Assembly: GCF_000682755.1 (NCBI RefSeq)
Contig: NZ_AWFF01000027.1
Span: forward strand, 1 to 64,000
Direction: 5' to 3'
Length of the DNA stretch: 64,000 bases
Source: Hyphomonas beringensis
GTDB lineage: Bacteria > Pseudomonadota > Alphaproteobacteria > Caulobacterales > Hyphomonadaceae
Shown in pieces: positions 1-13,120 of the stretch. The notes below the pieces were generated by a model. The model searched no databases and was not told where the DNA came from. It saw only the letters and a list, made by a program, of their open reading frames with translations. The translations under genes were made by a program, and so were the position numbers. The stretch's first letter is position 1. Each line of letters starts with the position of its first letter.

Positions 1-5
1 GGAAA

Positions 6-30
6 GAAATCGATCCAGTGAATCGATTTC
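6..30. repeat. Perfect inverted repeat at the window edge
   Basis: Nine-base arms GAAATCGAT (6-14) and ATCGATTTC (22-30) flank a 7-base spacer. It is followed by a GC-rich stretch (about 57-105) that can also fold, with CCCCTGAAAGGGG as its clearest hairpin. The stretch to 201 holds no convincing gene. No T-run follows, so this is not an obvious terminator. It may be the edge of an intergenic repeat or an operator for a gene outside the window. Confidence 0.45.
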
Positions 31-201
31 CCGAGGCAGGCTTGGGGCGCAAGCGTAGGGCAGGCGTCCCTCCCCCTGAAAGGGGCAGGACAGGTGGGGG
101 CCATACCACAATTGCTAATATAAGGCGCGAACCTCAGAGCAAAGGAAATACAATGACAAAGACAACTGGCACCCCGCCCGGAAAACCGGTAAGGCCCGTG
201 C

Positions 202-1395
202 ATGCAACCATCGCAGACATACGATACCATCGTCGTTGGAGCGGGGGCGGCGGGGCTGGCTCACGCAGCCATGTCCGGCCGCAATGGCCGGCGCGTTCTG
301 GTGCTGGACCACGCAAAACGCCCGGCTGAGAAAGTTCGCATTTCTGGCGGCGGGCGGTGCAATTTCACCAATCTGGAAACGCGCGCCGACCGCTTCCTCA
401 GCCAGAACCCCCATTTCGCCAAATCCGCCCTGGCGCGCTATACGCCCTGGGACTTTATTTCCCTGATGGCCGCTCACGGCCTCACCTATACCGAAAAGCA
501 CAAGGGCCAGCTCTTCTGTGATCAGAAGTCTGGCGCCATTATCCATATGCTGCTGGATGAAGCCGCGAGCGTCCATGCCGAAATTCGCCTGTCTACGGAG
601 GTTTCCGCTGTCCACCATCGCGGCGGCCACTATGAGGTGGAGACATCCGGCGGCCCTGTTCAGGCGACGCGTCTTGTTATGGCAACCGGCGGCCTGTCCA
701 TTCCCAAAATGGGCGCGAGCGGCCTTGCCTATGACATCGCCCGCCAATTCGGACATGATATTGTTGAGACCCGCGCCGGCCTTGTGCCCTTCACCTTTTC
801 TGGAGAGCTGGGCGAGAAATTCGCGGCGATCTCTGGCGTTGCCACGCCTGTGCGCGCCAGTGTTTCCGGGGCCAGCTTTGACGAAGACCTGCTGTTCACC
901 CATCGCGGCCTCTCCGGCCCGGCAGCGCTGCAAACCTCATCCTATTGGCAACCGGGGCAGGCCCTCACCCTCAGCCTGCTGACGGAGTCTGACCTTACCG
1001 AAACCCTGCGCACCGCGAAACAGACCCGGCCGAAACAGACCCTCGCCAAGGCGCTGGAAGACCTCTTCCCTGCCCGCCTCGCCGCCCTGGTGGCCGGTCT
1101 CGTCCCGGTCAGCGCGGACATGCGCCTCGCGGACCTCTCCCATGCCGCGATTGACGATCTCGCCGCCTTCACCCGCGCCTGGACCCTCACGCCCATGGGC
1201 ACAGAAGGCTATCGCACAGCAGAGGTCACCGTGGGCGGCATCTCAACAGATGGGCTGGACCAACGCACGATGGAGAGCCGCCATGTGCGCGGCCTCTATT
1301 TCATCGGCGAATGCGTGGACGTCACCGGCTGGCTGGGCGGCTATAATTTCCAATGGGCCTGGGCCAGTGCCCACGCCGCCGCGCAGGCGGAATAA
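202..1395 (+). CDS. NAD(P)/FAD-dependent oxidoreductase, HI0933/YhiN family
   Basis: A 397-residue flavoprotein. Residues 9-23 form the N-terminal dinucleotide-binding motif (TIVVGAGAAGLAHA), followed by the family hallmark ISGGGRCNFTN near residue 48. A second nucleotide-binding stretch (LVMATGGLSIPKMGASG) lies near residue 158. The C-terminus carries GLYFIGECVDVTGWLGGYNFQWAWASA, the FAD-contacting end typical of this family. The family is broadly annotated as BaiN/RdsA-like or PP_4765-like flavoproteins, and the physiological substrate is generally unknown. The ATG at 202 is the first in-frame start before the FAD motif. It converges on the ATP-grasp gene with no intervening base: stop codons end at 1395 and begin at 1396. 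The family is secure, the reaction unknown. Confidence 0.85.
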   Translation: MQPSQTYDTIVVGAGAAGLAHAAMSGRNGRRVLVLDHAKRPAEKVRISGGGRCNFTNLETRADRFLSQNPHFAKSALARYTPWDFISLMAAHGLTYTEKHKGQLFCDQKSGAIIHMLLDEAASVHAEIRLSTEVSAVHHRGGHYEVETSGGPVQATRLVMATGGLSIPKMGASGLAYDIARQFGHDIVETRAGLVPFTFSGELGEKFAAISGVATPVRASVSGASFDEDLLFTHRGLSGPAALQTSSYWQPGQALTLSLLTESDLTETLRTAKQTRPKQTLAKALEDLFPARLAALVAGLVPVSADMRLADLSHAAIDDLAAFTRAWTLTPMGTEGYRTAEVTVGGISTDGLDQRTMESRHVRGLYFIGECVDVTGWLGGYNFQWAWASAHAAAQAE

Positions 1396-2355
1396 TCAGG
1401 GCACCCACCGCGCGCGCAGAACCAGCCAGTCCCGCTTGCGCTGACTGACTAGGTCTGGATGGTCCAGCGCAATCGGCGCACCTTTGGTCGTATCGATCTG
1501 CTGCATGGCCTCCGCCAGACGCTGATGGAACAACGCGTCGGCCTCCACGCGGATTGGGAAAGGATGCTCCAGAATGCGGGAATTGTTCGGATTGGTATTG
1601 ATCTCGTAGACTTCTATCCGGCCATTCACCATGGCAAAGTCAGCCCGGCCAAACTCGACATTGGCGGCGCGGAAATACGCCTCCATAGCGGCGCCATGGC
1701 GGTTTTCCTTCACGGCGCTCAATTCGTCCTTGTACAGCTCTTCTGTCGCAACGCCTTCATGCCCGAATTTCGCATGCCAGGTCGCATCATGAACGGACAT
1801 GGAGGTGACCACCTTACCGCCCACACAATAGGCCGCCAGCTTTCGGAACAGATTCTCTGCCACCGGCTCAGCGCAATATTCGACAAACATCAGATCAGAC
1901 AGGCAATAGCCCTGATCGGTCAGATCCTGCAGCGCAGCCGCCGCCTCCTCCGCTGTGTTCAGCAGCTCCGTCAGCGTGCCCCGGTGCGCAGCGCGCGTAC
2001 GCAGGAACACGGGAAATCTGTCCGGCAGCCCATCGCTCGCGGCGTCCCACACCTGAAAACTGTTCAGGCCTTCCGCCTTGAGGTGTTTCAGCATCGCCAT
2101 CCGCGTCAGACAGGTAGCCGGATCATTCAGCACATTTGCGCCCCCGGCCTGCAAATTGCGGAAAGCCTTCGCAGCCAGTTCCAATTGCCAGAAATCCAGA
2201 CGGTCGAAGTCCGTAAAAATATAGGTCGCCTTCGGCAATTGCTTCGTGCGCAGCAACCGGTTGTAAGAGATCAGCTCAATGTCCGGCATGCCCGGAACAT
2301 CTATCAAATCCCGTACGGCGTATTTGTGCGCCCCGGAGGTTACAAAACAGATCAT
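1396..2355 (-). CDS. ATP-grasp domain protein, last gene of the peptide cassette
   Basis: A 319-residue protein that I read as a stand-alone ATP-grasp enzyme. The C-terminal half has the typical layout: FVEYCAEP, then FGRADFAMVNGRIEVYEINTNPNN, where the acidic residue and the E-x-N group would hold Mg-ATP. The N-terminus (MICFVTSGAHKYAVRDLI) resembles a pre-grasp Rossmann-like segment. ATP-grasp enzymes activate a carboxylate as an acyl-phosphate and join it to an amine, hydroxyl or thiol. Within RiPP pathways they form macrolactones or macrolactams (graspetides) or add residues. The gene starts 20 bases after the flippase stop with a strong ribosome site (GGGAAAGAG), so it is probably co-transcribed. 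Neither substrate nor exact family is recognised. A role in surface polysaccharide is the main alternative. Confidence 0.7.
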   Translation of the reverse strand: MICFVTSGAHKYAVRDLIDVPGMPDIELISYNRLLRTKQLPKATYIFTDFDRLDFWQLELAAKAFRNLQAGGANVLNDPATCLTRMAMLKHLKAEGLNSFQVWDAASDGLPDRFPVFLRTRAAHRGTLTELLNTAEEAAAALQDLTDQGYCLSDLMFVEYCAEPVAENLFRKLAAYCVGGKVVTSMSVHDATWHAKFGHEGVATEELYKDELSAVKENRHGAAMEAYFRAANVEFGRADFAMVNGRIEVYEINTNPNNSRILEHPFPIRVEADALFHQRLAEAMQQIDTTKGAPIALDHPDLVSQRKRDWLVLRARWVP

Positions 2356-2375
2356 ACGTCTCTTTCCCGCTTCCC

Positions 2376-3854
2376 TCAGGCCGGTTCCGGCAGGATGTCA
2401 TCATGGCTGCGGAACCATTTCAGGGCGCTCTTGATCTCGTCGATCTGACGTCCGGCTGCCAGCCACATCAGCCCCGCATAAATCGCGACGCCTGCCGTGA
2501 CCATAACCGCGATGATCGCGGCCGCAGGCCAGTCAGCCGGCAGGACAATCGGCAACAGCATCACGCTTGCGAACATAACAAGCGAGCAGAGAAGGGATCT
2601 CCAGCCGACCAGAAACTGGTGCCGCGCCGGATAGCCTGCTGCCCGCTCTACCAGCGTGGCAGACAGAGGCCAGGTCAGGAAGGTCCGCAAGGCAATCATG
2701 GCTGCAATTCCCGCCACTCCATAAGGCATCAACACCGGCGCCAGCGCCGCCAGCAGCAGAGTGCCTACAGACAGGATAAGAATCGGTGAGCGGGTGTCGC
2801 CCACACCACGCAGAATGGAAATGTTGAACGTGCCCGTCGCATCCCGGATCCCCAGCACCAGCAGGATCTGCAAAGGCAGGACAGCACCCTGCCATTCCTC
2901 ACCGAACATCAGGGGCACCAGGAAAGGGACAATCGCCGCAAGGCCCAGCGTTGAAGGATAGAGCAAAGTTGTCGTCAGCGTGAACACCCGGTCCAGCAGG
3001 TCACGCAGCATCCTGCGATCTGACTGCAGGCGCGCAATCACATTCATGGCGATTTCATTGAACGGTCCCATCAGCATGCCCGTCAGCATGCCGCTGATTG
3101 TATGCGCGATAGACAAGAGGCCCACGGCCCGCTCACCCCCAATGATACTCAGCAGAAAACGCGGAATGGCATTGTCTACATAGCCAATCAGGTAAGTGAG
3201 GATCGTATCGGTATTGAACGCAAACAGGTCCAGAAAGGCTTGCCGGCTGATGCGGAACCCGGGGCGCCAGCCCGACAACCAGAAAGACCCAACCGTCATG
3301 ATCATGGTACTGATCGCCATATTGGCGACAAGAGCCCACACACCAAACCCCGCCCAGGCCAGAAAAAGCGCAACCAGCGTAGCGATCATGCCGGCCCCTG
3401 CCCCGAGCATAACAACTTTATGCTGGTGCAGGTTTCGCTCCAGAAGAGCGCCGGGAACAGCGCTGATACTGCCGATAACCATAACCAGGCTGAGGGCAGG
3501 AAGAATCTCGCCCACTTGCTCTGAACTGACCAGAACCGACAGCGGCCCTGCAAAAACAACGATAGGAATGGCGAACAGCACCGTCAGACCGCTATTCAGC
3601 CAGAAGGTCGTATCCAGATGGTCCGGCGACACCTCTTCACGTTGCTGAATGGATTCCGTCAGCGGCGCGCCGACAAAAATACCAACCACACCAAAAATCA
3701 AGGCGGCCAGCGCCATCACCCCATAAGGGTCTGGGCCAAGGAACCGCGCCATCAGGGTAAAGCTGACCAGTCCGAACAGCGCAGAGCCCCAAGTATCCGC
3801 AAACATCCAGATGGCGCTGCGGACGGCGCGCTTTATGACCGATGGCGATGTCAT
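2376..3854 (-). CDS. Wzx/MATE-type polysaccharide or lipid flippase
   Basis: A 492-residue, very hydrophobic protein with about 12-14 predicted membrane segments. Its layout is that of oligosaccharide flippases: an N-terminal IWMFADTWGSALFGLVSFTLMARFLGPDPYG segment, an ERNLHQHK loop, a central LLSIAHTISGMLTGMLMGPFNEIAMNVIARLQ stretch, and a cytoplasmic tail after the last helices. Family members move lipid-linked sugars or small molecules across the inner membrane. Its ATG (3852-3854) lies one base after the stop of the HExxH gene, so the two are almost certainly translated together. No glycosyltransferase is present nearby. I infer export or membrane translocation of the modified peptide, or of a lipid-linked form of it. 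Flippase family confident, substrate unknown. Confidence 0.82.
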   Translation of the reverse strand: MTSPSVIKRAVRSAIWMFADTWGSALFGLVSFTLMARFLGPDPYGVMALAALIFGVVGIFVGAPLTESIQQREEVSPDHLDTTFWLNSGLTVLFAIPIVVFAGPLSVLVSSEQVGEILPALSLVMVIGSISAVPGALLERNLHQHKVVMLGAGAGMIATLVALFLAWAGFGVWALVANMAISTMIMTVGSFWLSGWRPGFRISRQAFLDLFAFNTDTILTYLIGYVDNAIPRFLLSIIGGERAVGLLSIAHTISGMLTGMLMGPFNEIAMNVIARLQSDRRMLRDLLDRVFTLTTTLLYPSTLGLAAIVPFLVPLMFGEEWQGAVLPLQILLVLGIRDATGTFNISILRGVGDTRSPILILSVGTLLLAALAPVLMPYGVAGIAAMIALRTFLTWPLSATLVERAAGYPARHQFLVGWRSLLCSLVMFASVMLLPIVLPADWPAAAIIAVMVTAGVAIYAGLMWLAAGRQIDEIKSALKWFRSHDDILPEPA

Positions 3855-3855
3855 A

Positions 3856-4854
3856 TCATGCAGACTGGAGGGTGGCAGCCTGCCCCGACATGAAGCCTGT
3901 CATGGCGGCCAGCACGTTCTGCCCCGTCCGGGTCAACCGGCCTTCACGGCGCACAATATCGGCGGATTCACGCTGAATGGCTTCCGTCTCACGCAAGGTA
4001 GACTCAAGCCTGCGGCGCTCCAGCCAGGAGAAATCTTTGCTCTCCTGCATGCGGCCCAAGACCCAGACCATCCGGGCAGATACGAAAGACGCATGAAAGA
4101 TCCCTTCCAGCGGGCGCTCTGTACCTCGGATAGGTGACCAGTAGCGCTCGGAGTCAGGGTTCTCGACCAGCATCTCCTCCTGGCAGGCTCCGAACAGGGC
4201 GGCATGGCCTTCTTCATGCGCCAGCGTGACAATCAGGTCTGCGAATGAGGCACGGCGCTCCGCGTTAAGCGCAACAGCGCCCCATAAACGGAAACACGTG
4301 CCGCCTTCAAAAGTAGCCTGCCCTTTGGCCGGGCCAACAAGAACAAGATCTCGCAGCAGCGTATTCATCTCACCGGAGAGTTCCGGCACGTTTGCATCAA
4401 TCCAGTTGATGGCTTCGCGCAGTTTCACAATGAAACGCTCTGCCTTGCGCGGGTCCGGCGCGGTCACACCGGCAACACCGGTTTCGGGCGCGCCCATGAA
4501 TTTCTGAATAATCGCCATCTCGCGCTCGGAATAGTCCGGCCCGAGGATGCGGAGTTTCACACCCTGAGGGGCAGCGGCCTGCTGGAAAATATCTGCAAGC
4601 AGGGAAAGACCTGTGTGGGTGTCATCGGCCTGAAGGGCTTCGACGGCTTCATAATATGTCCCAAAAACGGAGGGCGGCAGATTACTGCCAATCGGCAATC
4701 TGCTGCGCCAGGCCTGATAGGCGTTCTGCAATCCGGCGTCTGCACCAGAGAGAACTTCCACCAGGTAATTAAGGCTTTTGAACAATCGGTCATGCATGGC
4801 CAGATTGGTTTGTGCTGCGGCTTCAGCACTGGGGAGAAACTGGAAGGGTTGCAT
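3856..4854 (-). CDS. HExxH peptide-modification enzyme (aKG-HExxH type)
   Basis: A 332-residue protein. The motif LAHEEGH (His213, Glu214, His217) is a canonical HExxH metal site. About 35 residues later comes RPLEGIFHASFVSARM (His254 in the second element). The two together are the signature of the HExxH putative peptide-modification family (TIGR04267). Members of that family are now regarded as Fe/2-oxoglutarate-dependent peptide beta-hydroxylases of RiPP pathways rather than proteases. The ATG at 4854 is preferred, with TGAGG about 9 bases upstream. The longer reading from 4929 would begin inside an intrinsic terminator hairpin. The gene lies directly downstream of the small peptide gene and is coupled to the flippase. 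Family assignment rests on the two motifs; the hydroxylation target is inferred. Confidence 0.8.
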   Translation of the reverse strand: MQPFQFLPSAEAAAQTNLAMHDRLFKSLNYLVEVLSGADAGLQNAYQAWRSRLPIGSNLPPSVFGTYYEAVEALQADDTHTGLSLLADIFQQAAAPQGVKLRILGPDYSEREMAIIQKFMGAPETGVAGVTAPDPRKAERFIVKLREAINWIDANVPELSGEMNTLLRDLVLVGPAKGQATFEGGTCFRLWGAVALNAERRASFADLIVTLAHEEGHAALFGACQEEMLVENPDSERYWSPIRGTERPLEGIFHASFVSARMVWVLGRMQESKDFSWLERRRLESTLRETEAIQRESADIVRREGRLTRTGQNVLAAMTGFMSGQAATLQSA

Positions 4855-4893
4855 ATCCGGCCTCACAGGAAACTTTGTGTATTGAGTCTTTTG

Positions 4894-4928
4894 AAAAAAG
4901 CATGCCCCGCCCGTTTCCAGGCGGGGCA
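4894..4928 (-). terminator. Intrinsic terminator between peptide gene and HExxH gene
   Basis: On the minus strand a 9-bp perfect GC-rich stem (TGCCCCGCC / GGCGGGGCA, 4920-4928 and 4903-4911) with an 8-base loop is followed by a run of six T (4899-4894). It lies 20 bases after the peptide stop codon and about 40 bases before the HExxH start. Partial termination here would give excess peptide mRNA over enzyme mRNA, a common arrangement for precursor genes. Confidence 0.85.
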
Positions 4929-4947
4929 CAAGATTAGTCGCTGCGTA

Positions 4948-5079
4948 TTACCACCAGCCCCAGAAGGACCAGCCGCCGCGGCGCTTCTTACGACCGCCAC
5001 CTTTGCAACCAACCATCGTGTCGTTTTTCTCGTCACGACGATTGCTGTACCCAAGCAGCATTTCTTTGTTGAGTTTCAT
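4948..5079 (-). CDS. Small Trp-rich precursor-like peptide (43 aa)
   Basis: The peptide starts MKLNKEMLLGYSNRRDEKND, continues with TMVGCKGGG and RKKRR, and ends GGWSFWGWW. It has one Cys (25), a basic patch (30-34), a Gly-Gly at 35-36 and four Trp in the last seven residues (37, 40, 42, 43). ATG at 5079 has GGAG (5087-5090) 7 bases upstream. Two further in-frame ATGs at 5106 and 5118 would give 52 or 56 residues but lack a good ribosome site. A strong intrinsic terminator follows the gene, then the HExxH enzyme. A charged leader, a Gly-Gly junction and a short aromatic C-terminus next to a RiPP maturase are what a RiPP precursor looks like. I do not recognise the sequence family. Core boundary and modification are inference. 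Confidence 0.72.
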   Translation of the reverse strand: MKLNKEMLLGYSNRRDEKNDTMVGCKGGGRKKRRGGWSFWGWW

Positions 5080-5304
5080 TTGAGTACTCCATTGTCCCAC
5101 CACCATGGTGGTACTCATTTACTTGCATATTCTGTGCAAGTTGAAAGCCTCCAAGTAAAAATATTTATGAATTTATGTGTGTCAGAAGGATACAGCAGAC
5201 GAATGCAAGTTATTCGCAAGATTCAACCTCACCGGACAGATGAGCCTTGCATCGAAAACTCGCCCCTGAGTAGTAAATCGGAATGTCTGAAACGATGTCC
5301 GCCG
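5080..5304 (-). promoter_or_regulatory. Control region of the peptide cassette with ACTTGCA repeats
   Basis: This 225-base region between truB and the peptide gene is more AT-rich than its surroundings. It contains an inverted repeat ACTTGCA-N7-TGCAAGT (5121-5141), a further TGCAAGT at 5204-5210, and a 14-bp perfect palindrome ACCACCATGGTGGT (5099-5112). GAGTAC (5082-5087) and GTACTC (5111-5116) could pair in the mRNA and partly cover the ribosome site. An AT-rich island at 5150-5185 probably carries the promoter, but I cannot fix the -35 and -10 boxes. The regulator is unknown and none is encoded in the cassette. Confidence 0.5.
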
Positions 5305-6249
5305 TCAGTGTGTGAAAACGCGGCTCGGCTCAAATCGTCCGGCACGCACATCGCCCAGGGCGACAGCTTGGCCAGAGCAAATGGCAATCGCCGCCCGGTC
5401 ATACTCTTCGGCACCCGCCGCCGCTTCGCGCCACTGCTCCACAATGTGAGGCAACAGAACGATCGCGCGGCCCTGCCGAATATCCCGTGCTTCCTCGCGG
5501 GAGATGTCGATCTGGGGAATGTCTTCCAGAATGGCATGCACCGGCTGCAACAGGGAGAGCAGCTCTTCCTTGTCATCCGTCTCTTCGATGCGCGACAACG
5601 CCACAGCCTGCGGCGCGCCGAACACCCCGACGCGCGTGCGGCGTAGCTGGCTGATATGGCCTTCGCAGCCAAGGTCGAATGCCAGGTCGCGAGCCATGGC
5701 CCGCACATAGAATCCCTTGCCGGAGGTGACATGGATCACCGTATGGTCGGCATCCGGCATCCCGATCACGGCGGCTTCATAGACCTGCACCTCGCGGGAG
5801 GTGAGTTCGAACTCCTCCCCGTCGCGGGCAAGATCATAGGCGCGCTGGCCGTCCACCTTGATGGCAGAGAATTTCGGCGGCACCTGCTCAATGGTGCCGA
5901 GATAGTCTTTGAGAAGGTCTTCCACCTGCTCCCGTGTCGGGCGGGCGTCTGACGTCGCGGTCACCTCGCCTTCTGCATCCTGGCTCGCGGTCGAGACGCC
6001 CCAGCAGATGGTGAAGACATATTCCTTTTCAGCGTCCATCGCCCACTGGACCGTCTTCGTGGCTTCCCCGAAAGCAATCGGCAGGATGCCATCCGCCAAT
6101 GGGTCCAGCGTACCGCCATGGCCGACTTTCTGCGCATTGAATTTTCGCTTGAGAATAGCGACGGCCTGGGTTGAGGTCATGTCCACGGGTTTGAACAGGT
6201 TCAGCCACCCGCTGATCGGGTCACCTTTGCGTTTTCTCTGGCGGGCCAA
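5305..6249 (-). CDS. truB: tRNA pseudouridine(55) synthase TruB
   Basis: A 314-residue enzyme that isomerises U55 to pseudouridine in the T-loop of tRNAs. The N-terminus has GWLNLFKPVDMTSTQAV and the catalytic motif GHGGTLDPLADGILPIAFGEATK near residue 43, whose Asp is the nucleophile. KGFYVRAMARDLA and the LRRTRVGVF segment follow, as expected. The C-terminal part corresponds to the usual extended PUA-like end. It closes the rimP-nusA-infB-rbfA-truB string. In many alphaproteobacteria rpsO and pnp follow truB; here the peptide cassette follows instead. Length and motifs fit the family well. Confidence 0.96.
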   Translation of the reverse strand: MARQRKRKGDPISGWLNLFKPVDMTSTQAVAILKRKFNAQKVGHGGTLDPLADGILPIAFGEATKTVQWAMDAEKEYVFTICWGVSTASQDAEGEVTATSDARPTREQVEDLLKDYLGTIEQVPPKFSAIKVDGQRAYDLARDGEEFELTSREVQVYEAAVIGMPDADHTVIHVTSGKGFYVRAMARDLAFDLGCEGHISQLRRTRVGVFGAPQAVALSRIEETDDKEELLSLLQPVHAILEDIPQIDISREEARDIRQGRAIVLLPHIVEQWREAAAGAEEYDRAAIAICSGQAVALGDVRAGRFEPSRVFTH

Positions 6250-6378
6250 TGTAGACTCTCTTTATTTGCGCGGCCCGGCGGTTCGAACGCGGGCGGCGGC
6301 GGTCAGTTGGAATAGAACGAAGGCGCGGCCTTACGAAGCGCGCCTGTCTGCGTCAAGCCATCAACGGCAAGCTGGACA

Positions 6379-7053
6379 TCATGAAGCAGTCTTGATGACC
6401 TCAGCATCTGACTCGCGCTCGAAAAGCACATCCCGGTCTTCCGCTTCGGCCTCTTGCCCGCGCTCAGGCACCGCCTCTGTCGTCCGCACCCGCTCAGCCG
6501 CTTTGGCAGGCCGCTCGGCCTGTGTTGGCAGGCGCAGATTGACGAGGTCCAGGTCCAGATCGAAATCCCCGCGCATGTCGCGGTCGCCTGTGTCCATCTT
6601 GTGTCGCACCACGTCGCGGATACGCAGCAGAACATCGCGATTATTGTCGACCAGCGGGATCTGCCGGCCGTCCGCAGCGCCGATCACCAGCCGGAAATAG
6701 GATTGCTGCTTCTTCAGACGCATGGAGATCTGAATGGCGCGAATGCCCAGGAACAGCGCCAGCAGCATCAGCCCGCTGCCCACAGCCAGCGCGACCACGC
6801 CCGAAGGGCGCTGAGGCGTCAGGCCCCACCAGGCCAGCGCCATCATGCCGAAGAACAGGCAGACGACGAACAGCGTGGCATAGAGGCTTTTTGTGCGGCG
6901 ATTGGCAGGCGTGTCCCATGGATGGAACTCCACGGACTCAACCGACATGGTCGCAATGCCCTGAATGGCGATTGTATCATCGCCCATCTGCAGGGACGCA
7001 GCCGAAATCTCGCCGCGCCGCGCGCCTTCCATATCAAGAGTCTGACGGTCCAT
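6379..7053 (-). CDS. DUF6232-like two-helix membrane protein
   Basis: A 224-residue protein of unknown function. Residues 1-45 look like a short strand-rich segment ending ATMSVESVEF. Two hydrophobic helices follow (LYATLFVVCLFFGMMALAWW and VVALAVGSGLMLLALFLGI). Then comes RLVIGAADGRQIPLVDNNRDVLLRIRDVV, a pattern I associate with DUF6232 or bacterial PH-like membrane proteins. The charged C-terminal tail is Glu/Arg-rich. It lies between rbfA and truB. The 129 bases after it (6250-6378) contain no supported gene. The domain name is tentative; the membrane topology is clear. Confidence 0.6.
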   Translation of the reverse strand: MDRQTLDMEGARRGEISAASLQMGDDTIAIQGIATMSVESVEFHPWDTPANRRTKSLYATLFVVCLFFGMMALAWWGLTPQRPSGVVALAVGSGLMLLALFLGIRAIQISMRLKKQQSYFRLVIGAADGRQIPLVDNNRDVLLRIRDVVRHKMDTGDRDMRGDFDLDLDLVNLRLPTQAERPAKAAERVRTTEAVPERGQEAEAEDRDVLFERESDAEVIKTAS

Positions 7054-7141
7054 TCCGGGAGCCCCTGTTTAATTCATTACAGGGTCGCAACGTTATTCGG
7101 GGCTGTCAAATTACAAGCCATCCAGACAGGAGAGGCCGATG

Positions 7142-7549
7142 CTATTCGGGCTCCAGATCGCGTTTTACGCGCGGATCGGCCAGAAGACGGTCAATCGCGG
7201 TCGCCTCATCATAGGATTTGTCTGCAATGAAGTGCAGCTGGGGCGTGAACTTCAGGTCAATTTCCCGGCCAAGACGTCCGCGCAGGAAACTTGCCGCACG
7301 GTTCAACGCTTCGGCCAGAGATGTGCGGCCCTTTTCCGTGTCATCGCCCAGCGGCGATACAAACACGTTCGCATGGCGCAAATCCGGAGAGCAGCGCACC
7401 TCCCCCACAGTGACGATCACACCGATCAGGTCCGGATCACGCAGATCCTCACGCGCCAGAATGTCAGACACCGCATGGCGCACCAGTTCGCCGGCGCGAA
7501 GCTGGCGCTGTGTCGGCATGTTGCCGGAAGGGGAAGATTTACGTGCCAT
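7142..7549 (-). CDS. rbfA: Ribosome-binding factor A
   Basis: A 135-residue protein that assists 30S subunit maturation by acting on the 16S rRNA 5' helix. The sequence QRQLRAGELVRHAVSDILAREDLRDPDLIGVIVTVGEVRCSPDLRHANVFVSPLG is the standard RbfA KH-type domain, and LKFTPQLHFIADKSYDEATAIDRLL is the conserved end. The ATG at 7549 overlaps the stop of the upstream membrane-protein gene (TGATG), so translation is coupled. The open frame extends further upstream, but only inside that gene. The position after infB, with one gene interposed, supports the call. Confidence 0.94.
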   Translation of the reverse strand: MARKSSPSGNMPTQRQLRAGELVRHAVSDILAREDLRDPDLIGVIVTVGEVRCSPDLRHANVFVSPLGDDTEKGRTSLAEALNRAASFLRGRLGREIDLKFTPQLHFIADKSYDEATAIDRLLADPRVKRDLEPE

Positions 7550-8076
7550 CAGCTGCCTGTCTTCTGCATGAGCTGTTCTGTAAAGGCCTTGCGGGCCGTC
7601 TTGTCCTTGTTGAACCACGATGCCGGAATTATGACGGCATCGCCGCCCCGTATCCGGACTGTCGTGTGTCCACGATGCTGTTTCACCTCTTTGACGGCGT
7701 CCCAGCTGATCCGGGTTTCAATGCCGCCACGGCGAACCTGTAAAACGTCGTCCAGCAGAGCGATCTCTGCCTCACGTGCCATCTCGTCCTTGCCATCTCC
7801 GCTGACGCCATAGGACCAGCGGATGAAGATAAGATACCACGAAATACCGGCAAATGCCGCCACCAGCGCCGAGAGAAACCACTGCCAGTAGGCACTCAGC
7901 CCCGCCATGTCCGCTGCGTTGCGGACCATGAGGGAGATGCTGGCCGATATGATCGGGGCTGTGACCCCGGCATAATAGACTGCCGTAGGCCCAACCGTGC
8001 CGCCCCGACTGAGACGCGCAAGACGCTTGAGGTCTTTTTCGGCCAGCTGGCCCGAGACTATGACAGGTTCACTCAT
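7549..8076 (-). CDS. YcxB-like membrane protein between infB and rbfA
   Basis: A 175-residue protein with two membrane helices (VTAPIISASISLMV and WQWFLSALVAAFAGISWYLIFI) and a C-terminal strand-rich domain. That domain reads LQVRRGGIETRISWDAVKEVKQHRGHTTVRIRGGDAVIIPASWF. The PH-like pattern, in which a membrane hairpin is followed by '...WDAVKEV...IPASWF', is typical of YcxB-like proteins of unknown function. It lies 12 bases after infB and overlaps rbfA by one base, so it is embedded in the translation operon. No enzymatic role can be proposed. Confidence 0.7.
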   Translation of the reverse strand: MSEPVIVSGQLAEKDLKRLARLSRGGTVGPTAVYYAGVTAPIISASISLMVRNAADMAGLSAYWQWFLSALVAAFAGISWYLIFIRWSYGVSGDGKDEMAREAEIALLDDVLQVRRGGIETRISWDAVKEVKQHRGHTTVRIRGGDAVIIPASWFNKDKTARKAFTEQLMQKTGS

Positions 8077-8088
8077 GAGCGACCCTGT

Positions 8089-10641
8089 TTAGTCGAGCGT
8101 CCTTGCGATTTCCTCAACCTGGAAGCACTCGATCTTGTCGCCGACGCGCATGTCGTCATAGCGCTCGAACGCCATACCGCATTCCATGCCGGAATTGACC
8201 TCGTTGACCTCGTCCTTGAAACGCTTGAGCGTTTTCAGCTTGCCTTCATGGATGACGACATCGTCACGCAGCAGGCGAACGCCACAGCCGCGAAGCACTT
8301 TGCCTTCGCTGATCCGGCAGCCTGCAACCTTGCCCACTTTCGTGATGTTGAAGACTTCGAGGATCTCGGCATAGCCGATGAAGGTTTCGCGTTTCTCCGG
8401 TGCCAGCATGCCCGACAGGGTGGCTTTCACATCGTCGATCAGGTCGTAGATCACGGAATAGTAGCGGATCTCGACGCCTTCCTTCTCTGCCAGATCGCGC
8501 GCCTGCTTGTTGGCGCGGACGTTGAAGGCAAAGATCGGTGCGTTGGACGAACGGGCCAGCAGCACGTCGCTTTCGGAAATACCGCCCACAGCGCCATGAA
8601 TGACACGGGCACGGACTTCCTCGGTCGACAGCTTGTCCAGCGACTGGGAAATCGCCTCGACAGACCCCTGAACATCGCCCTTTACAACCACTGGCAGCTC
8701 GGACGTCTCGACAGAGCCATCTTTCAGCTTGCTGAGCAGCTGATCCAGTGAAGCACGCGCCGCAGCGCCCGCCTTGCCGGAAACCTGCCGCTTGGAGCGG
8801 ATACGGTATTCGGTGACTTCACGGGCACGGGCTTCGGTATCGACAACCACGAAGGAGTCGCCCGGGTCCGGCGCGCCATCCAGGCCGAGCACCTCGACCG
8901 GCTGGGCCGGGCCTGCGCCTTTCAGCTGTTGTCCACGCTCGTCAACCAGAGCCCGGACCTTACCCCATTGCGAGCCGGCCACGACGATATCGCCGCGCTC
9001 CAGCGTACCGCGCTTGACCAGCACGGTGGCAACCGGGCCGCGGCCCTTGTCCAGTTGGCTTTCGATCACCACGCCATCTGCATGACGCGACGGGTTGGCT
9101 TTCAGTTCCAGAAGTTCGGCCTGCAGAGTAATGGCATCCGTCAGCTCGTCCAGACCCTGACCCGTCAGGGCAGAGACTTTCACGGCCTGGGTTTCACCGC
9201 CCATGCTTTCGACCTGAACATCATGCTGCAACAGGTCTGTCAGCACCTTGTCGGCATTGGAGTCCGGCAGGTCTGTCTTGTTGACCGCCACGATGATCGG
9301 AACACCGGCCGCCTTGGCGTGATTGATGGATTCAATCGTCTGCGGCATCACGGAGTCATCCGCCGCCACGACCAGAATGGCAATGTCGGTCGCCGTCGCA
9401 CCACGCGCACGCATTGCCGTAAAGGCCGCGTGGCCCGGCGTATCGAGGAAGGTAATCCGGTCACCGGATTTCAGCTTCACCTGATAGGCACCGATATGTT
9501 GGGTAATGCCGCCTGCTTCGCCCGCGACCACATCGGTCTTGCGCAGGGCGTCCAGCAGAGAGGTCTTGCCGTGGTCGACATGGCCCATGATCGTGACGAT
9601 CGGCGGGCGTGACTTCAGATCTTTCGGATCATCATCCTCACCTTCAAGACCGATCTCGACATCGGATTCAGCAACACGTTTCACGGTGTGGCCAAATTCC
9701 TCGGCGATCAGTTCGGCCGTGTCAGCGTCGATAATGTCATTGCCGCGCAGCATCTCGCCTTGCTGGATCATGAATTTGACGACGTCTGCGACGCGCTCAT
9801 TCATCCGCTGGGCCAGATCCTGCAGTGTGATCGTTTCCGGCAGGGTGACTTCGACAGACACTTTCTCGCGCTGCTCGCTACCGCCTGTGCGGCGCTCACG
9901 TTCGCGCTCACGGGCACGGCGCAGGGAGGCCAGCGAACGCTGACGGTCTGCATCATCGCCAAGAGCCGAAGAAATGGTCAGCTTGCCACGACGGCGCTCA
10001 CCACCACCCCCACGAGAAGGACGGTTCTGCGTGTCACGGCGATCACGGTCATCCTTGGATTTACGCTTGCCGCCACTGCGCGCCGGGGCATCATCAACGG
10101 CAGGAGCCGCAGCCGCCGGGCTGTCGGCAGGTGCCGCAGATTTGGCGCGGGCTTTCGGGGCACGGTCAACGCGCTCCTTCGCGGCGGCTTCTTCAGCCTT
10201 GCGCGCTTCTTCCTCGGCCTTGCGGCGAGCTTCAGCCTCTTCGCGCTCTTTCGCTTCCTGCAGTTTCTTTTCCTGCTCGGAGCGAAGGCGGTCCTGGGCC
10301 TCCTTCTCGCGCTGCTCTTCCTTGGCGCGGGCCGCAACTTCGTTCTTGCGTTCCAGCAGGGCCTTCTGACGCGCTTTCAGCTCGTCGACGGTAATGCCCA
10401 GCTTCTTCGCGGTCGCAACCAGGCGCGCCTCAAGGGTATCATTCCCCTTTGGCGCGTCCTTGGCAGGTGCGGAGGAGGAGGAGCCGCCAGGGCCTACCGC
10501 CCGGCGCTTCTTCGTCTCAACAACCACCTGCTTGGAGCGGCCATGGCTGAAGCTTTGCTTCACCGTACCGGAACTCTTCCGGGAGACGGTGAGCGGTTTG
10601 CGCCCGCCTGAATTGCCACCAGTGTCTTTCGTATCGCTCAT
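8089..10641 (-). CDS. infB: Translation initiation factor IF-2
   Basis: An 850-residue GTPase that places initiator tRNA on the 30S subunit. Residues 1-300 are the long charged N-terminal region, with Ala/Glu/Arg-rich coiled coil and Lys/Arg patches, as in other alphaproteobacteria. The G domain shows [20 protein letters not shown] (G1), [12 protein letters not shown] (G2), [16 protein letters not shown] (G3) and NKTDLPD (G4). The C-terminal domains follow, ending with the fMet-tRNA-binding domain. A conserved IF2_N module precedes the G domain. It sits between ylxR/L7Ae and the interposed membrane gene. Confidence 0.98.
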
Positions 10642-10701
10642 GCGTTCTTCATACCACGTTTCTTGCCGATGCGCGCCATTGCGCCTCAGCTTTGTTTTCC
10701 G

Positions 10702-11379
10702 CTACCGATCCTGATCCGGGAACCAGTCCAGTTCGGGCCGTGTGCGAAATCCGGCAAGCCGCCGGTAGGCAAGCCGTATAGCTTTCGCAATTGGACCCTT
10801 GCGGACGAGACCGTGTATCACACGCTCACGCCCAAACGCCACGCCCAATTCCTCAGAACTGAGCGCACCGGCCATTTCCACGTCGCTATATAATGCTTTT
10901 GCAAGGAAATACACCTTTGAGCGGCCATCTTCTGCACCATCGGCCGCCTCAAGCAAAAGTCCGGGACGTTTCTTCTGGAGCGCATCGCGCACCTGATCAA
11001 AGCCCAGAACGATTTCGCCGGACTTCTTGGCCATGCCCAGAAGCCCCGTGAAACGCTTCAGCAGAAGCGCCTCGATCTGGTCGATCAGACCGTCAGGCAC
11101 CTTGACCTGAGTTTTGAAGCCCCGGGCAAACGCCCCTTTGCCAATCGCTGTCTCAAGCGTCTCGCGATCAGCCTTTACCCACACCCCCCGTCCAGGGAGC
11201 CGGGATGACACATCCGGCGTCACCACACCCTCAGGTGAGAGGGCAAAGCGCACCATCTCTGTCTGCGGGAGACGTTCCCGCGTCACGGCGCACTGGCGGA
11301 CAGGGATCTCCCCGTCCGCCATGCTTTGTCCGTCAGTGCCGGTTACCCGCGCATCACTCTTTCGGTGCGGCCTCGTCAT
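10702..11379 (-). CDS. YlxR-L7Ae RNA-binding protein (DUF448 plus ribosomal L7Ae-like)
   Basis: A 225-residue protein. The N-terminal YlxR/DUF448 module reads VRQCAVTRERLPQTEMVRFALSPEGVVTPDVSSRLPGRGVWV. A C-terminal L7Ae/L30e-like module begins about residue 110 (LLGMAKKSGEIVLGFDQVRDAL). Such fusions are normal between nusA and infB in alphaproteobacteria and are thought to bind RNA. The ATG at 11379 has GGAGG 7 bases upstream and overlaps the end of nusA by 26 bases. A later start at 11322 is possible but has a poor ribosome site. The final segment is Arg-rich. Confidence 0.88.
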   Translation of the reverse strand: MTRPHRKSDARVTGTDGQSMADGEIPVRQCAVTRERLPQTEMVRFALSPEGVVTPDVSSRLPGRGVWVKADRETLETAIGKGAFARGFKTQVKVPDGLIDQIEALLLKRFTGLLGMAKKSGEIVLGFDQVRDALQKKRPGLLLEAADGAEDGRSKVYFLAKALYSDVEMAGALSSEELGVAFGRERVIHGLVRKGPIAKAIRLAYRRLAGFRTRPELDWFPDQDR

Positions 11380-13120
11380 CGCCGCCCTCCGCTGACAGGG
11401 CTTCGAGATCAAACTCGAGCTCTTCAAGGGCCTCATCGACCGCCTCATCAGAAGCATTGCTGCCAAGATCGCCCAGCGCCAGCAGCGCGCGTTCTTCTTC
11501 GGTCAGCTCAGGCACTTCTTCTTCGGCCTTTTCAGCCAGCATCTTCTCGACGGTGTCCGGCTCAACCCAGCCTGCGGCAACGCGGGCCTTCATGACGAAC
11601 ATCTGCGCGTCATCCTTGCGCATCTCGCCCTTCTTCAGAATGCCTTCCACCCAGACCGGCTTGCCGTCCGGGCCCGGCTCACGCCAGCCGGTGATGTCGT
11701 CCGGCACCAGGCCTGCAACATCATCCAGCGTCTGCACGCCTTCTTCGCCGAGACGGACAGCAAAGGACGGCGTCATGCCTTCCAGCTCCATCACGGCATC
11801 TTCAACGCCCAGCTCCTTGCGCTTGGCATCATTCTCGGCGGCAACGCGGTCCAGATATTCACGGGCACGTTCCTGCAGCTCGGCGGCTACATCCTCGTCA
11901 AAGCCTTCAATCGTGATGAAGTCTTCAGAGGCCACATAGGCAATTTCTTCGACCGTCTCGAAGCCTTCAGAGGCGAGCAGCTGAGCCAGCGTTTCGTCCG
12001 CATCCAGCGCTTTCATGAACAGGTCGGTACGCTCCTGGAACTCACGCTGATAGCGCTCGGAATCGGCGCTTTCGGTCACGAGGTCGATCTGCCAGCCGGT
12101 CAGCTGGGAGGCGAGGCGCACATTCTGTCCGCGGCGGCCAATAGCCAGCGGGAACTGATCGTCCGCCACCACGACTTCCACGCGGCGCTCTTCCTCGTCC
12201 AGCACCACTTTCGACACTTCGGCCGGCTGCAGCGCGTTCACGATGAAGGTTGCGTCGTCATAGTTCCACGGAATGATGTCGATCTTCTCACCGGAGAGTT
12301 CGCCAACAACCGCCTGGACACGCGCACCGCGCATACCCACACAGGCGCCGACCGGATCAATCGAGCTGTCATTGGAGATCACGCCGATCTTGGCGCGGCT
12401 GCCCGCGTCACGGGCACAGGCCTTGATCTCGATCACACCTTCATAGACTTCCGGAACTTCCTGCGCGAACAGCTTGACCATGAAATCAGGCGCAGAGCGG
12501 GACAGGAAGATTTGCGGACCCTTGGTCTCGCGGCTGACCTTGTAAAGATAGGCCCGCACACGATCATTCGTCTGGAAGTTCTCGCGCGGAATACCGTCAT
12601 TGCGGCGGATAATGCCCTCTGCGCGGCCGAGGTCCACGATCACATGGCCATATTCGACGCGCTTAACGACACCGGAGATGATCTCTCCGACGCGATCCTT
12701 GTACTCATTGTACTGACGCTCACGCTCGGCATCACGCACCTTCTGCATGATGACCTGCTTGGCGGTCTGGGCAGCCACACGACCGAAATCGAACGGCGGC
12801 AGCTCGTCTTTCAGCTCGTCGCCGACCTCAAGGGAGTCGTCGATCTTCTTGGCTTCCGACAGACGCAGCTGTTTGGATTCATCCTCGAACTCATCGTCCG
12901 GGACGACTGTCTGGATCCGCCACAGCGTCTGTTCGCCGGTCTGCTCATCGATCTTCGCACGGATGTCGTGCTCCTGGCCGTATTTTGCTTTCGCGGCCTT
13001 CTCGATGGCTTCCTGCATAGCCTCGATGACGATTGTCTGATCAATCGCCTTCTCTTCAGCGACCGCCTTGGCGATCTGCAGGATTTCCAGCCTGTTGGCT
13101 GAAACGCCGATGGTGTTCAT
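11354..13120 (-). CDS. nusA: Transcription termination/antitermination protein NusA
   Basis: A 588-residue protein that binds RNA polymerase and modulates pausing, termination and antitermination. In order it has the N-terminal polymerase-binding domain, an S1 domain (GEIISGVVKRVEYGHVIVDLGRAEGII), and KH domains (IDPVGACVGMRGARVQAVVGELSGEKIDIIPW, then AIGRRGQNVRLASQLTGWQIDLV). Two C-terminal helix-hairpin-helix-type acidic repeats follow, and the tail is very acidic. Its start overlaps the rimP stop (ATGA, 13117-13120). The product itself could act on the terminator-like hairpin found in the rimP leader; that part is inference. Confidence 0.98.
   Translation of the reverse strand: MNTIGVSANRLEILQIAKAVAEEKAIDQTIVIEAMQEAIEKAAKAKYGQEHDIRAKIDEQTGEQTLWRIQTVVPDDEFEDESKQLRLSEAKKIDDSLEVGDELKDELPPFDFGRVAAQTAKQVIMQKVRDAERERQYNEYKDRVGEIISGVVKRVEYGHVIVDLGRAEGIIRRNDGIPRENFQTNDRVRAYLYKVSRETKGPQIFLSRSAPDFMVKLFAQEVPEVYEGVIEIKACARDAGSRAKIGVISNDSSIDPVGACVGMRGARVQAVVGELSGEKIDIIPWNYDDATFIVNALQPAEVSKVVLDEEERRVEVVVADDQFPLAIGRRGQNVRLASQLTGWQIDLVTESADSERYQREFQERTDLFMKALDADETLAQLLASEGFETVEEIAYVASEDFITIEGFDEDVAAELQERAREYLDRVAAENDAKRKELGVEDAVMELEGMTPSFAVRLGEEGVQTLDDVAGLVPDDITGWREPGPDGKPVWVEGILKKGEMRKDDAQMFVMKARVAAGWVEPDTVEKMLAEKAEEEVPELTEEERALLALGDLGSNASDEAVDEALEELEFDLEALSAEGGDDEAAPKE

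Follow-up and report, generated by a model that had tools for sequence, protein, structure and literature searches.

A likely new family of modified peptides, with an HExxH oxygenase and an ATP-grasp ligase, in Hyphomonas and distant bacteria

Four neighboring genes of Hyphomonas beringensis, on the minus strand of contig NZ_AWFF01000027.1 (assembly GCF_000682755.1), very probably produce a small, chemically modified peptide, with an oxygenase and a ligase of an uncommon kind as the modifying enzymes. The genes lie within the first 64,000 nt of this contig, and "the window" refers here to the whole of that stretch. The cassette is likely to represent an undescribed family of ribosomally synthesized and post-translationally modified peptides (RiPPs) that combines oxidation by an HExxH enzyme with ligation by an ATP-grasp enzyme. 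The core of the family is a precursor with an LLGF-type leader and an alpha-ketoglutarate-dependent HExxH (alphaKG-HExxH) enzyme, often accompanied by the ATP-grasp ligase; the flippase of the Hyphomonas cassette is local. A preliminary description of this DNA had read the genes as a RiPP-type cassette, and that reading is supported by a match to the TIGR04267 model, a predicted structure resembling ChlBHExxH and the recurrence of the precursor. The gene order, the strand, the gaps of 1 and 20 bases and the strong terminator after the peptide gene were all found as it gave them. The four genes are:

4948 to 5079, minus strand: precursor peptide gene, 43 amino acids (aa), ATG start, with GGAG 7 bases upstream
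3856 to 4854, minus strand: HExxH gene, ATG start, encoding a predicted alphaKG-HExxH-type peptide hydroxylase (TIGR04267, motifs, predicted fold)
2376 to 3854, minus strand: MOP/Wzx-type flippase gene (Pfam PF13440), after a 1-base gap from the HExxH gene
1396 to 2355, minus strand: ATP-grasp ligase gene of an unnamed family, with GRxD and EINTNP motifs, after a 20-base gap from the flippase gene

Profile, motif and predicted fold all identify the HExxH protein as a putative alphaKG-HExxH peptide hydroxylase. It scores 91.5 bits against TIGR04267 (cut-off 40, E 5.9e-26), the type named in the preliminary description, and carries HEEGH, a distal histidine within GIFHA and an SPxRxxxRP motif. 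Across 16 aligned rows the putative metal-site residues H214, E215, H218 and H255 are invariant, as are S241-P242, R244 and R248-P249, and in the window protein these residues would bind iron or alphaKG. When a profile of 16 HExxH relatives was compared with the PDB, it matched 8s5f (ChlH, E 5.6e-11) and, at E 1.7e-10, a chain with the name 'Radical SAM core domain-containing protein'. The AlphaFold model of the protein, with a predicted local distance difference test score (pLDDT) of 92.3, also matched 8s5f best (E 1.7e-9, template-modeling (TM) score 0.70), and the second match, 22ob (SjiH, E 1.3e-7), was the only other at E <= 0.001.

Loci with adjacent HExxH and ATP-grasp genes numbered 25, from two phyla, and include Caulobacter, Parvibaculum, Novosphingobium, Pseudomonas and Verrucomicrobiota. 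They comprise six Hyphomonas-type loci (the window, with its precursor at 4948-5079, L007 and L010-L013) together with L014-L017, L019-L022, L024, L036, L059-L061 and L125-L130. An open reading frame (ORF) with an LLGF-type leader, usually followed by a Gly-x-Lys core, lies upstream of the HExxH gene on the same strand in 24 of these 25; the exception, L015, is on a contig that starts about 140 bases before its HExxH gene. Precursors from Pseudomonas sp. N040 (L017, MTVKFDIAKLLGFRISSAHSAGAKTGLKAGVKVGMKAGVKPV), Parvibaculum (L022, MQVKLQLTKLLGFRILVAAGEPVTSAKIGEKIGGKPGVKVGMKPPADF) and Opitutia (L021, MEKNIQNTKLDQSKLLGFISTTKVGQKPTAPLQAKVGSKVGFKD) serve as examples, and leader variants include RMLGL (L036), KMLGY (L059) and RLMGF (L130). 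Two precursors are present at L130, and at L125 three LLGF precursors stand in tandem (4233-4707, minus strand) ahead of a single HExxH gene, with two ATP-grasp genes nearby.

Since the leader motif had been noticed before it was searched for, two controls were run. In the first, a strict pattern was found upstream of HExxH in 14 of 22 loci, four of them HExxH-only, within 11,252 bp, compared with 7 ORFs in 272,330 bp of other sequence; this pattern does not cover the Hyphomonas spelling MLLGF, which accounts for five of the 8 misses. In the second, six loci fetched once the motif was known gave 5 strict and 6 loose matches, compared with 2 ORFs in 64,210 bp elsewhere. Core lysines also tend to have glycine two positions away: this holds for 66 of 92 lysines in 17 precursors (three of them HExxH-only; five Hyphomonas-type near copies and nine later-found precursors were left out), whereas shuffled cores gave a mean of 28.7 and none of 2000 shuffles was as high. 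The preliminary description would have been undermined by a peptide not conserved beside HExxH homologues in other genomes; such a conserved peptide is present in the 24 loci above and in 3 of the 7 HExxH loci that were opened and have no ATP-grasp gene alongside. The arrangement typical of a RiPP, a small precursor with a conserved leader adjoining its modifying enzymes, thus occurs across genomes.

Codon differences between loci also show the 43-aa ORF of the window to be a real gene, kept in all six Hyphomonas-type loci: over the first 28 codons synonymous differences outnumber non-synonymous ones in 14 of 15 locus pairs and equal them in the other. Its product consists of a leader with MLLGY (LLGF in relatives), VGCKGG, a basic stretch, GG and the aromatic tail WSFWGWW. 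The six precursors share the consensus M(N/K)L(K/N)(K/T)(E/D)MLLG(F/Y)SNxRDxKNDTMVGCKGG, followed by a variable basic stretch and an aromatic tail, which in the other five is RKFFKFW or similar. The peptide had been called Trp-rich, and this is true of the tail in the window strain but not of the family, whose members have the LLGF leader and GxK in common. The window precursor was matched by no model of Pfam or NCBIfam, and nine other precursors gave NCBIfam matches at chance level only. In all six, GG is followed by a 7-8 residue aromatic and mostly cationic tail; the peptide may be cleaved here and its product act on membranes.

For the ATP-grasp protein, Pfam gave no ATP-grasp match and NCBIfam only weak matches to RimK and D-Ala-D-Ala ligase (Ddl) models, all far below cut-off. 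Against the PDB, Ddl alone matched its profile at E <= 0.1 (best 4.1e-4). The nearest folds to its AlphaFold model (pLDDT 92.7), among the best 50 of 385 matches at E <= 0.001, are Ddl, VanA, RimK, LysX/ArgX and synapsin, with TM scores of 0.43-0.56. The GRxD and EINTNP motifs, intact in the window protein, are invariant in 20 aligned rows.

The 25 loci do not give a rate of pairing because the majority were found through the ATP-grasp. A scan of named genomes with the ATP-grasp profile returned 15 loci, 13 of them with an adjoining HExxH gene; the exceptions are L018, which lies 587 bases from a contig end, and L023. Where the ATP-grasp led the search, an HExxH gene adjoined it in 2 of the 6 genomes with matches in the class (385 genomes searched), 3 of 9 in the order (200 genomes) and 7 of 13 in family f27 (295 genomes). 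Searches led by HExxH found an adjoining ATP-grasp gene in 5 of 5 cases within the genus, and at the level of the phylum, where 9 of 398 genomes matched, in 4 of 8 opened (the window's own genome, G535, G687 and G711). Weak matches left unopened were L049, L050 and L108 for HExxH and G106, G921, G062 and G1149 for the ATP-grasp. Pairwise distances of the two enzymes correlate (r 0.86 for 16 pairs and 0.70 for 12 pairs that include a single Hyphomonas; none of 5000 permutations did as well), as is also expected from shared descent, so that the correlation is no proof of contact. On a tree of 48 ATP-grasp rows, built, as were all trees, with short searches only, the presence or absence of HExxH requires 2 changes compared with a shuffled mean of 15.6, and that of the flippase 2 compared with 6.7. 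In both verrucomicrobial cassettes the HExxH gene is directly followed by a 306-aa gene (L020 4785-5705 and L021 253-1173, both minus strand) that looks glycosyltransferase-like by eye; it had no Pfam match at either locus and, for L020, no PDB match.

The flippase matches Pfam PF13440 (Polysacc_synt_3) with 185.6 bits against a cut-off of 23, and all its matches to NCBIfam subfamily models are below cut-off. It stands between the HExxH and ATP-grasp genes in 7 of the 25 loci, every one in Hyphomonadaceae; two of the 25, L015 and L021, are on short contigs (5.7 and 3.6 kb). Recurrence in unrelated genomes, the check that had been proposed, was seen in distant bacteria for the peptide, HExxH and ATP-grasp genes, whereas the flippase is a local addition rather than part of the recurring set. 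The cassette flippases cluster weakly on a tree (support 66), and a single origin is therefore not established. A flippase and ATP-grasp regularly occurring without the other two genes would have counted against the cassette; among the loci opened this was seen once only, with a distant ATP-grasp in a polysaccharide region of Paracoccus.

The cassette is bounded as a unit:

1384 to 5313, no strand: whole cassette, about 3.9 kb, between truB and an FAD (flavin adenine dinucleotide) oxidoreductase-like gene; absent in two relatives, G016 and G009

The flanking genes, truB (5305-6249) and the FAD oxidoreductase-like gene (202-1395), were named by our own reading. In G016 and G009 their proteins are 91-96% identical to those of the window and the genes are 47 and 49 bases apart; window positions 5314 and 1383 (or 1382) border the 47- or 49-base gap of the empty site (L073, L074). 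In this single comparison with a clean empty site, all four genes are present or absent together as one block. The missing block, at about 1384-5313, agrees with the span of 1396-5141 first given to the cassette. HExxH homologues were found in 5 of 41 genomes searched, the window's own included, and in 5 of 25 within the genus: G003, G019 and G024 carry all four genes at the matching site, and G010 has a distant copy at another. When the FAD gene was sought in 19 relatives, seven had it with truB and all cassette genes missing from the 1.5 kb on either side, seven gave weak FAD matches only, and three others were G003, G019 and G024.

Three further elements lie within the block:

4901 to 4930, minus strand: intrinsic terminator between the peptide and HExxH genes, a 13-pair stem followed by a run with six T
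5123 to 5139, minus strand: TTGCA-N7-TGCAA palindrome, a possible regulator site, both half-sites invariant in six aligned Hyphomonas-type loci
5096 to 5113, minus strand: possible hairpin of the 5′ untranslated region (5′-UTR), ahead of the ribosome-binding site, in six Hyphomonas-type loci

Seven terminator-like sites were counted in 1300-5400, compared with a shuffled mean of 4.5, and that at 4930-4901 has the longest stem. Its placement would allow an excess of peptide over the other cassette products; a longer GTG ORF of the HExxH gene (to 4929) would extend back into it. The palindrome, kept in 6 of 6 Hyphomonas-type loci, bears out the operator-like region that had been noted in front of the genes. 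In the 7-pair 5′-UTR hairpin 90.2% of alignment cells are paired, and shuffles equal it in 154 of 500 cases for pairing and 78 of 500 for covariation. Rfam gave no matches across 1-12000 of the window. A sigma-54 promoter upstream of the peptide gene fitted by eye in the window and had no fit in relatives, and was dropped; a reading of the locus as a defense system was likewise set aside, PADLOC giving no matches for the three large proteins.

A pathway can be proposed from these observations. The oxygenase would recognize the LLGF leader, since three loci with no ATP-grasp gene next to HExxH still have a leader of this type (KLYGF in L062, KLFGF in L063 and LIGF in L109), and would then hydroxylate a beta-carbon within or next to the G-x-K motif. 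The ATP-grasp enzyme may form an acyl phosphate and attach to the peptide a small acid or an amino acid, most likely through the amines of the conserved lysines, although for this lysine step the chances are judged somewhat below even. In Hyphomonadaceae the Wzx-type flippase would move the product or an intermediate over the inner membrane, and the leader would be removed by a protease encoded elsewhere. In its most specific form the proposal is tentative and rather doubtful: a new, LLGF-defined class of RiPPs present in two or more phyla, in which evenly spaced lysines are hydroxylated and acylated (or aminoacylated) by a stand-alone alphaKG-HExxH enzyme and an ATP-grasp ligase, the peptide product being moved in Hyphomonas by a flippase of the Wzx type.

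Several observations weigh against this pathway. Half of the HExxH genomes opened in the phylum sample (G432, G601, G620 and G531) have no ATP-grasp gene next to HExxH. L062 and L109 retain G-x-K or G-K cores with no ATP-grasp gene beside them, so the lysines may be the target of HExxH, of the ATP-grasp or of both, which weakens the lysine-ligation step. The L063 core is LGRLFSKRG rather than G-x-K, Hyphomonas cores retain a single clear VGCK, and among the three HExxH-only loci with a precursor, L062 and L063 have long-branched HExxH rows on the tree. A second HExxH/ATP-grasp pair on the L014 contig (11021-13015, divergent) has no visible precursor. No protease gene was seen in the ORF list of the Hyphomonas block, 18 of the 25 loci are without a flippase, and transporters and proteases near other cassettes were sought not systematically but by Pfam on ten neighbors only. 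ATP-grasp relatives without an adjacent HExxH gene are common (at least 3 of the 6, 5 of the 9 and 4 of the 13 genomes with matches in the class, the order and family f27), and some adjoin glycosyltransferase, flippase or transporter-like genes; the ancestral job of the ligase therefore need not be on peptides.

As to the HExxH-only loci themselves, no ATP-grasp match was found in G432 and G601, the genomes of L062 and L063, and G221 has three ATP-grasp genes elsewhere in its genome. No LLGF-type leader was found in L064, L065, L136 or L137, four of the 7 opened. At L063, where the precursor has two LGRLFSKRG repeats and there is no ATP-grasp gene, an 841-aa ORF (4767-7292, minus strand) overlaps the end of the HExxH gene. 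Plasmids gave four weak HExxH matches, and the two opened have major facilitator superfamily (MFS) transporters and no ATP-grasp. These are L136 (4605-6716, a conjugative Pantoea plasmid) and L137 (4845-7174, a Xenorhabdus plasmid, with a carboxymuconolactone decarboxylase-family gene between the HEXXH and MFS transporter genes), and no LLGF peptide was found in either. The ATP-grasp has two distant plasmid matches (Deinococcus and Paracoccus), with no HExxH in the stretches examined, and of the 86 pattern stretches from one profile scan of viral contigs not one codes for a relative. A second group of ATP-grasps without HExxH (L131-L135) lies near ORFs that by eye are transporter-like and, at L135, like family 2 glycosyltransferases (GT2).

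The ligase might instead form side-chain cross-links inside the peptide, joining Lys with Asp/Glu or a newly introduced hydroxyl with a carboxylate, with HExxH only decorating the product. The preliminary description had pointed to graspetides, in which ATP-grasp enzymes form bonds. The Hyphomonas peptides keep RDxKNDT, in which acidic and Lys/Thr residues are close together; moreover, the RiPP ATP-grasps known so far are macrocyclases. Acidic residues are nevertheless scarce in the family and not conserved in position: L017 has none in its core and L016, L019, L020 and L021 have one each, so that 5 of 19 listed ATP-grasp-linked cores have at most one and the family as a whole lacks a regular acceptor. 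No graspetide-ligase model matched the protein at E <= 1, and no graspetide ligase is among the best 50 of 385 fold matches, the nearest being Ddl, RimK and LysX. Cross-linking is judged unlikely. Equally improbable is the extension or capping of the peptide C-terminus. RimK and LysX/ArgX, which activate a protein carboxylate, are among the closest folds (best 50 of 385), yet across the precursors it is the lysines that are conserved and the C-terminal residues that vary.

More improbable still is that flippase and ATP-grasp serve glycan or lipid-linked assembly, with the peptide as a decoration or regulator. On the Paracoccus plasmid the ATP-grasp gene adjoins a flippase and polysaccharide genes with no HExxH in the 11 kb examined, and the L135 ATP-grasp adjoins the GT2-like gene. 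However, the flippase is missing from most cassette loci, cassette ATP-grasps separate on the tree from those without HExxH, and no glycosyltransferase was seen in the ORF list of the Hyphomonas block. Least probable of all, and very unlikely, is that HExxH is a zincin-type protease freeing the aromatic tail after GG for export by the flippase: the motif itself, the GG in six Hyphomonas-type peptides and hydrolysis of a leaderless substrate by the relative PflC speak for it, but the sequence and predicted fold match alphaKG oxygenases, precursors outside Hyphomonas lack the basic-GG-aromatic tail and full-length PflA was not hydrolyzed under anaerobic conditions (for PflC and PflA, PMC12636437).

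Modification of LLGF-leader peptides by the oxygenase and the ligase therefore remains our preferred explanation. As a class of RiPP enzymes the alphaKG-HExxH proteins are young, and their pairing with an unassigned ATP-grasp on Lys/Gly-repeat peptides predicts new chemistry. The LLGF leader offers a simple handle for family members missed by present models. Wzx-type flippases are so far known for lipid-linked sugars, and that of Hyphomonas raises the question of peptide transport by the MOP family.

The preliminary description knew of no described family with HExxH, ATP-grasp and a Wzx-type flippase, and no HExxH plus ATP-grasp RiPP family was found in a literature whose coverage lay largely outside subscription papers. 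Only one of the papers found, PMC13039773, mentions HEXXH, ATP-grasp and precursor peptide together, and it concerns a microviridin leader protease. The main text of the graspetide survey PMC8939145 mentions none of HEXXH, Hyphomonas, flippase and KLLGF. The alphaKG-HExxH enzymes are reported to act on His, Asp, Phe, Gln and Pro (PMC13060819), and some RiPPs rely on a protease encoded elsewhere (PMC12636437).

Among known systems, the pfl/pos RiPPs of Pseudomonas (PflC/PosC) resemble the cassette in that an alphaKG-HExxH oxygenase modifies a small precursor and no protease is encoded in the cluster. They differ in their precursors, with nitrile-hydratase-like leaders, Gln runs and ARMD, and in their partners, an MNIO (multinuclear non-heme iron-dependent oxidative enzyme)-nitroreductase fusion and a GNAT; the text of PMC12636437 nowhere uses the term 'ATP-grasp'. 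The nitrilobacillins (PesO) also combine an alphaKG-HExxH beta-hydroxylase with an ATP-using, carboxylate-activating enzyme in one cluster, but that enzyme is asparagine-synthetase-like and yields a C-terminal nitrile, an MNIO is present, and 'ATP-grasp' is again absent from the text (PMC13060819). ChlBHExxH (8s5f) has the fold (TM 0.70 with the predicted model) and the HExxH ... SPxRxDxRP ... GxxHA motifs in common with the window enzyme, at 13-14% identity in the fold alignment; it forms a fusion with a radical SAM enzyme and requires a cyclophane (PMC12636437), whereas the window enzyme is free-standing. Graspetides of the microviridin type (PMC8939145) share an ATP-grasp ligase adjoining a leader-bearing precursor, but their ligase models do not match and the cassette cores have no conserved acidic acceptors. 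Finally, RimK, LysX, ArgX and the D-Ala-D-Ala ligases are the closest ATP-grasp folds among the best 50 of 385. The first three ligate amino acids to proteins. Identity to the window ATP-grasp is 11-16%, with TM scores of 0.43-0.56 and profile models (RimK, Ddl) far below cut-off, and, unlike all of these, the window enzyme is paired with an HExxH oxygenase and LLGF peptides.

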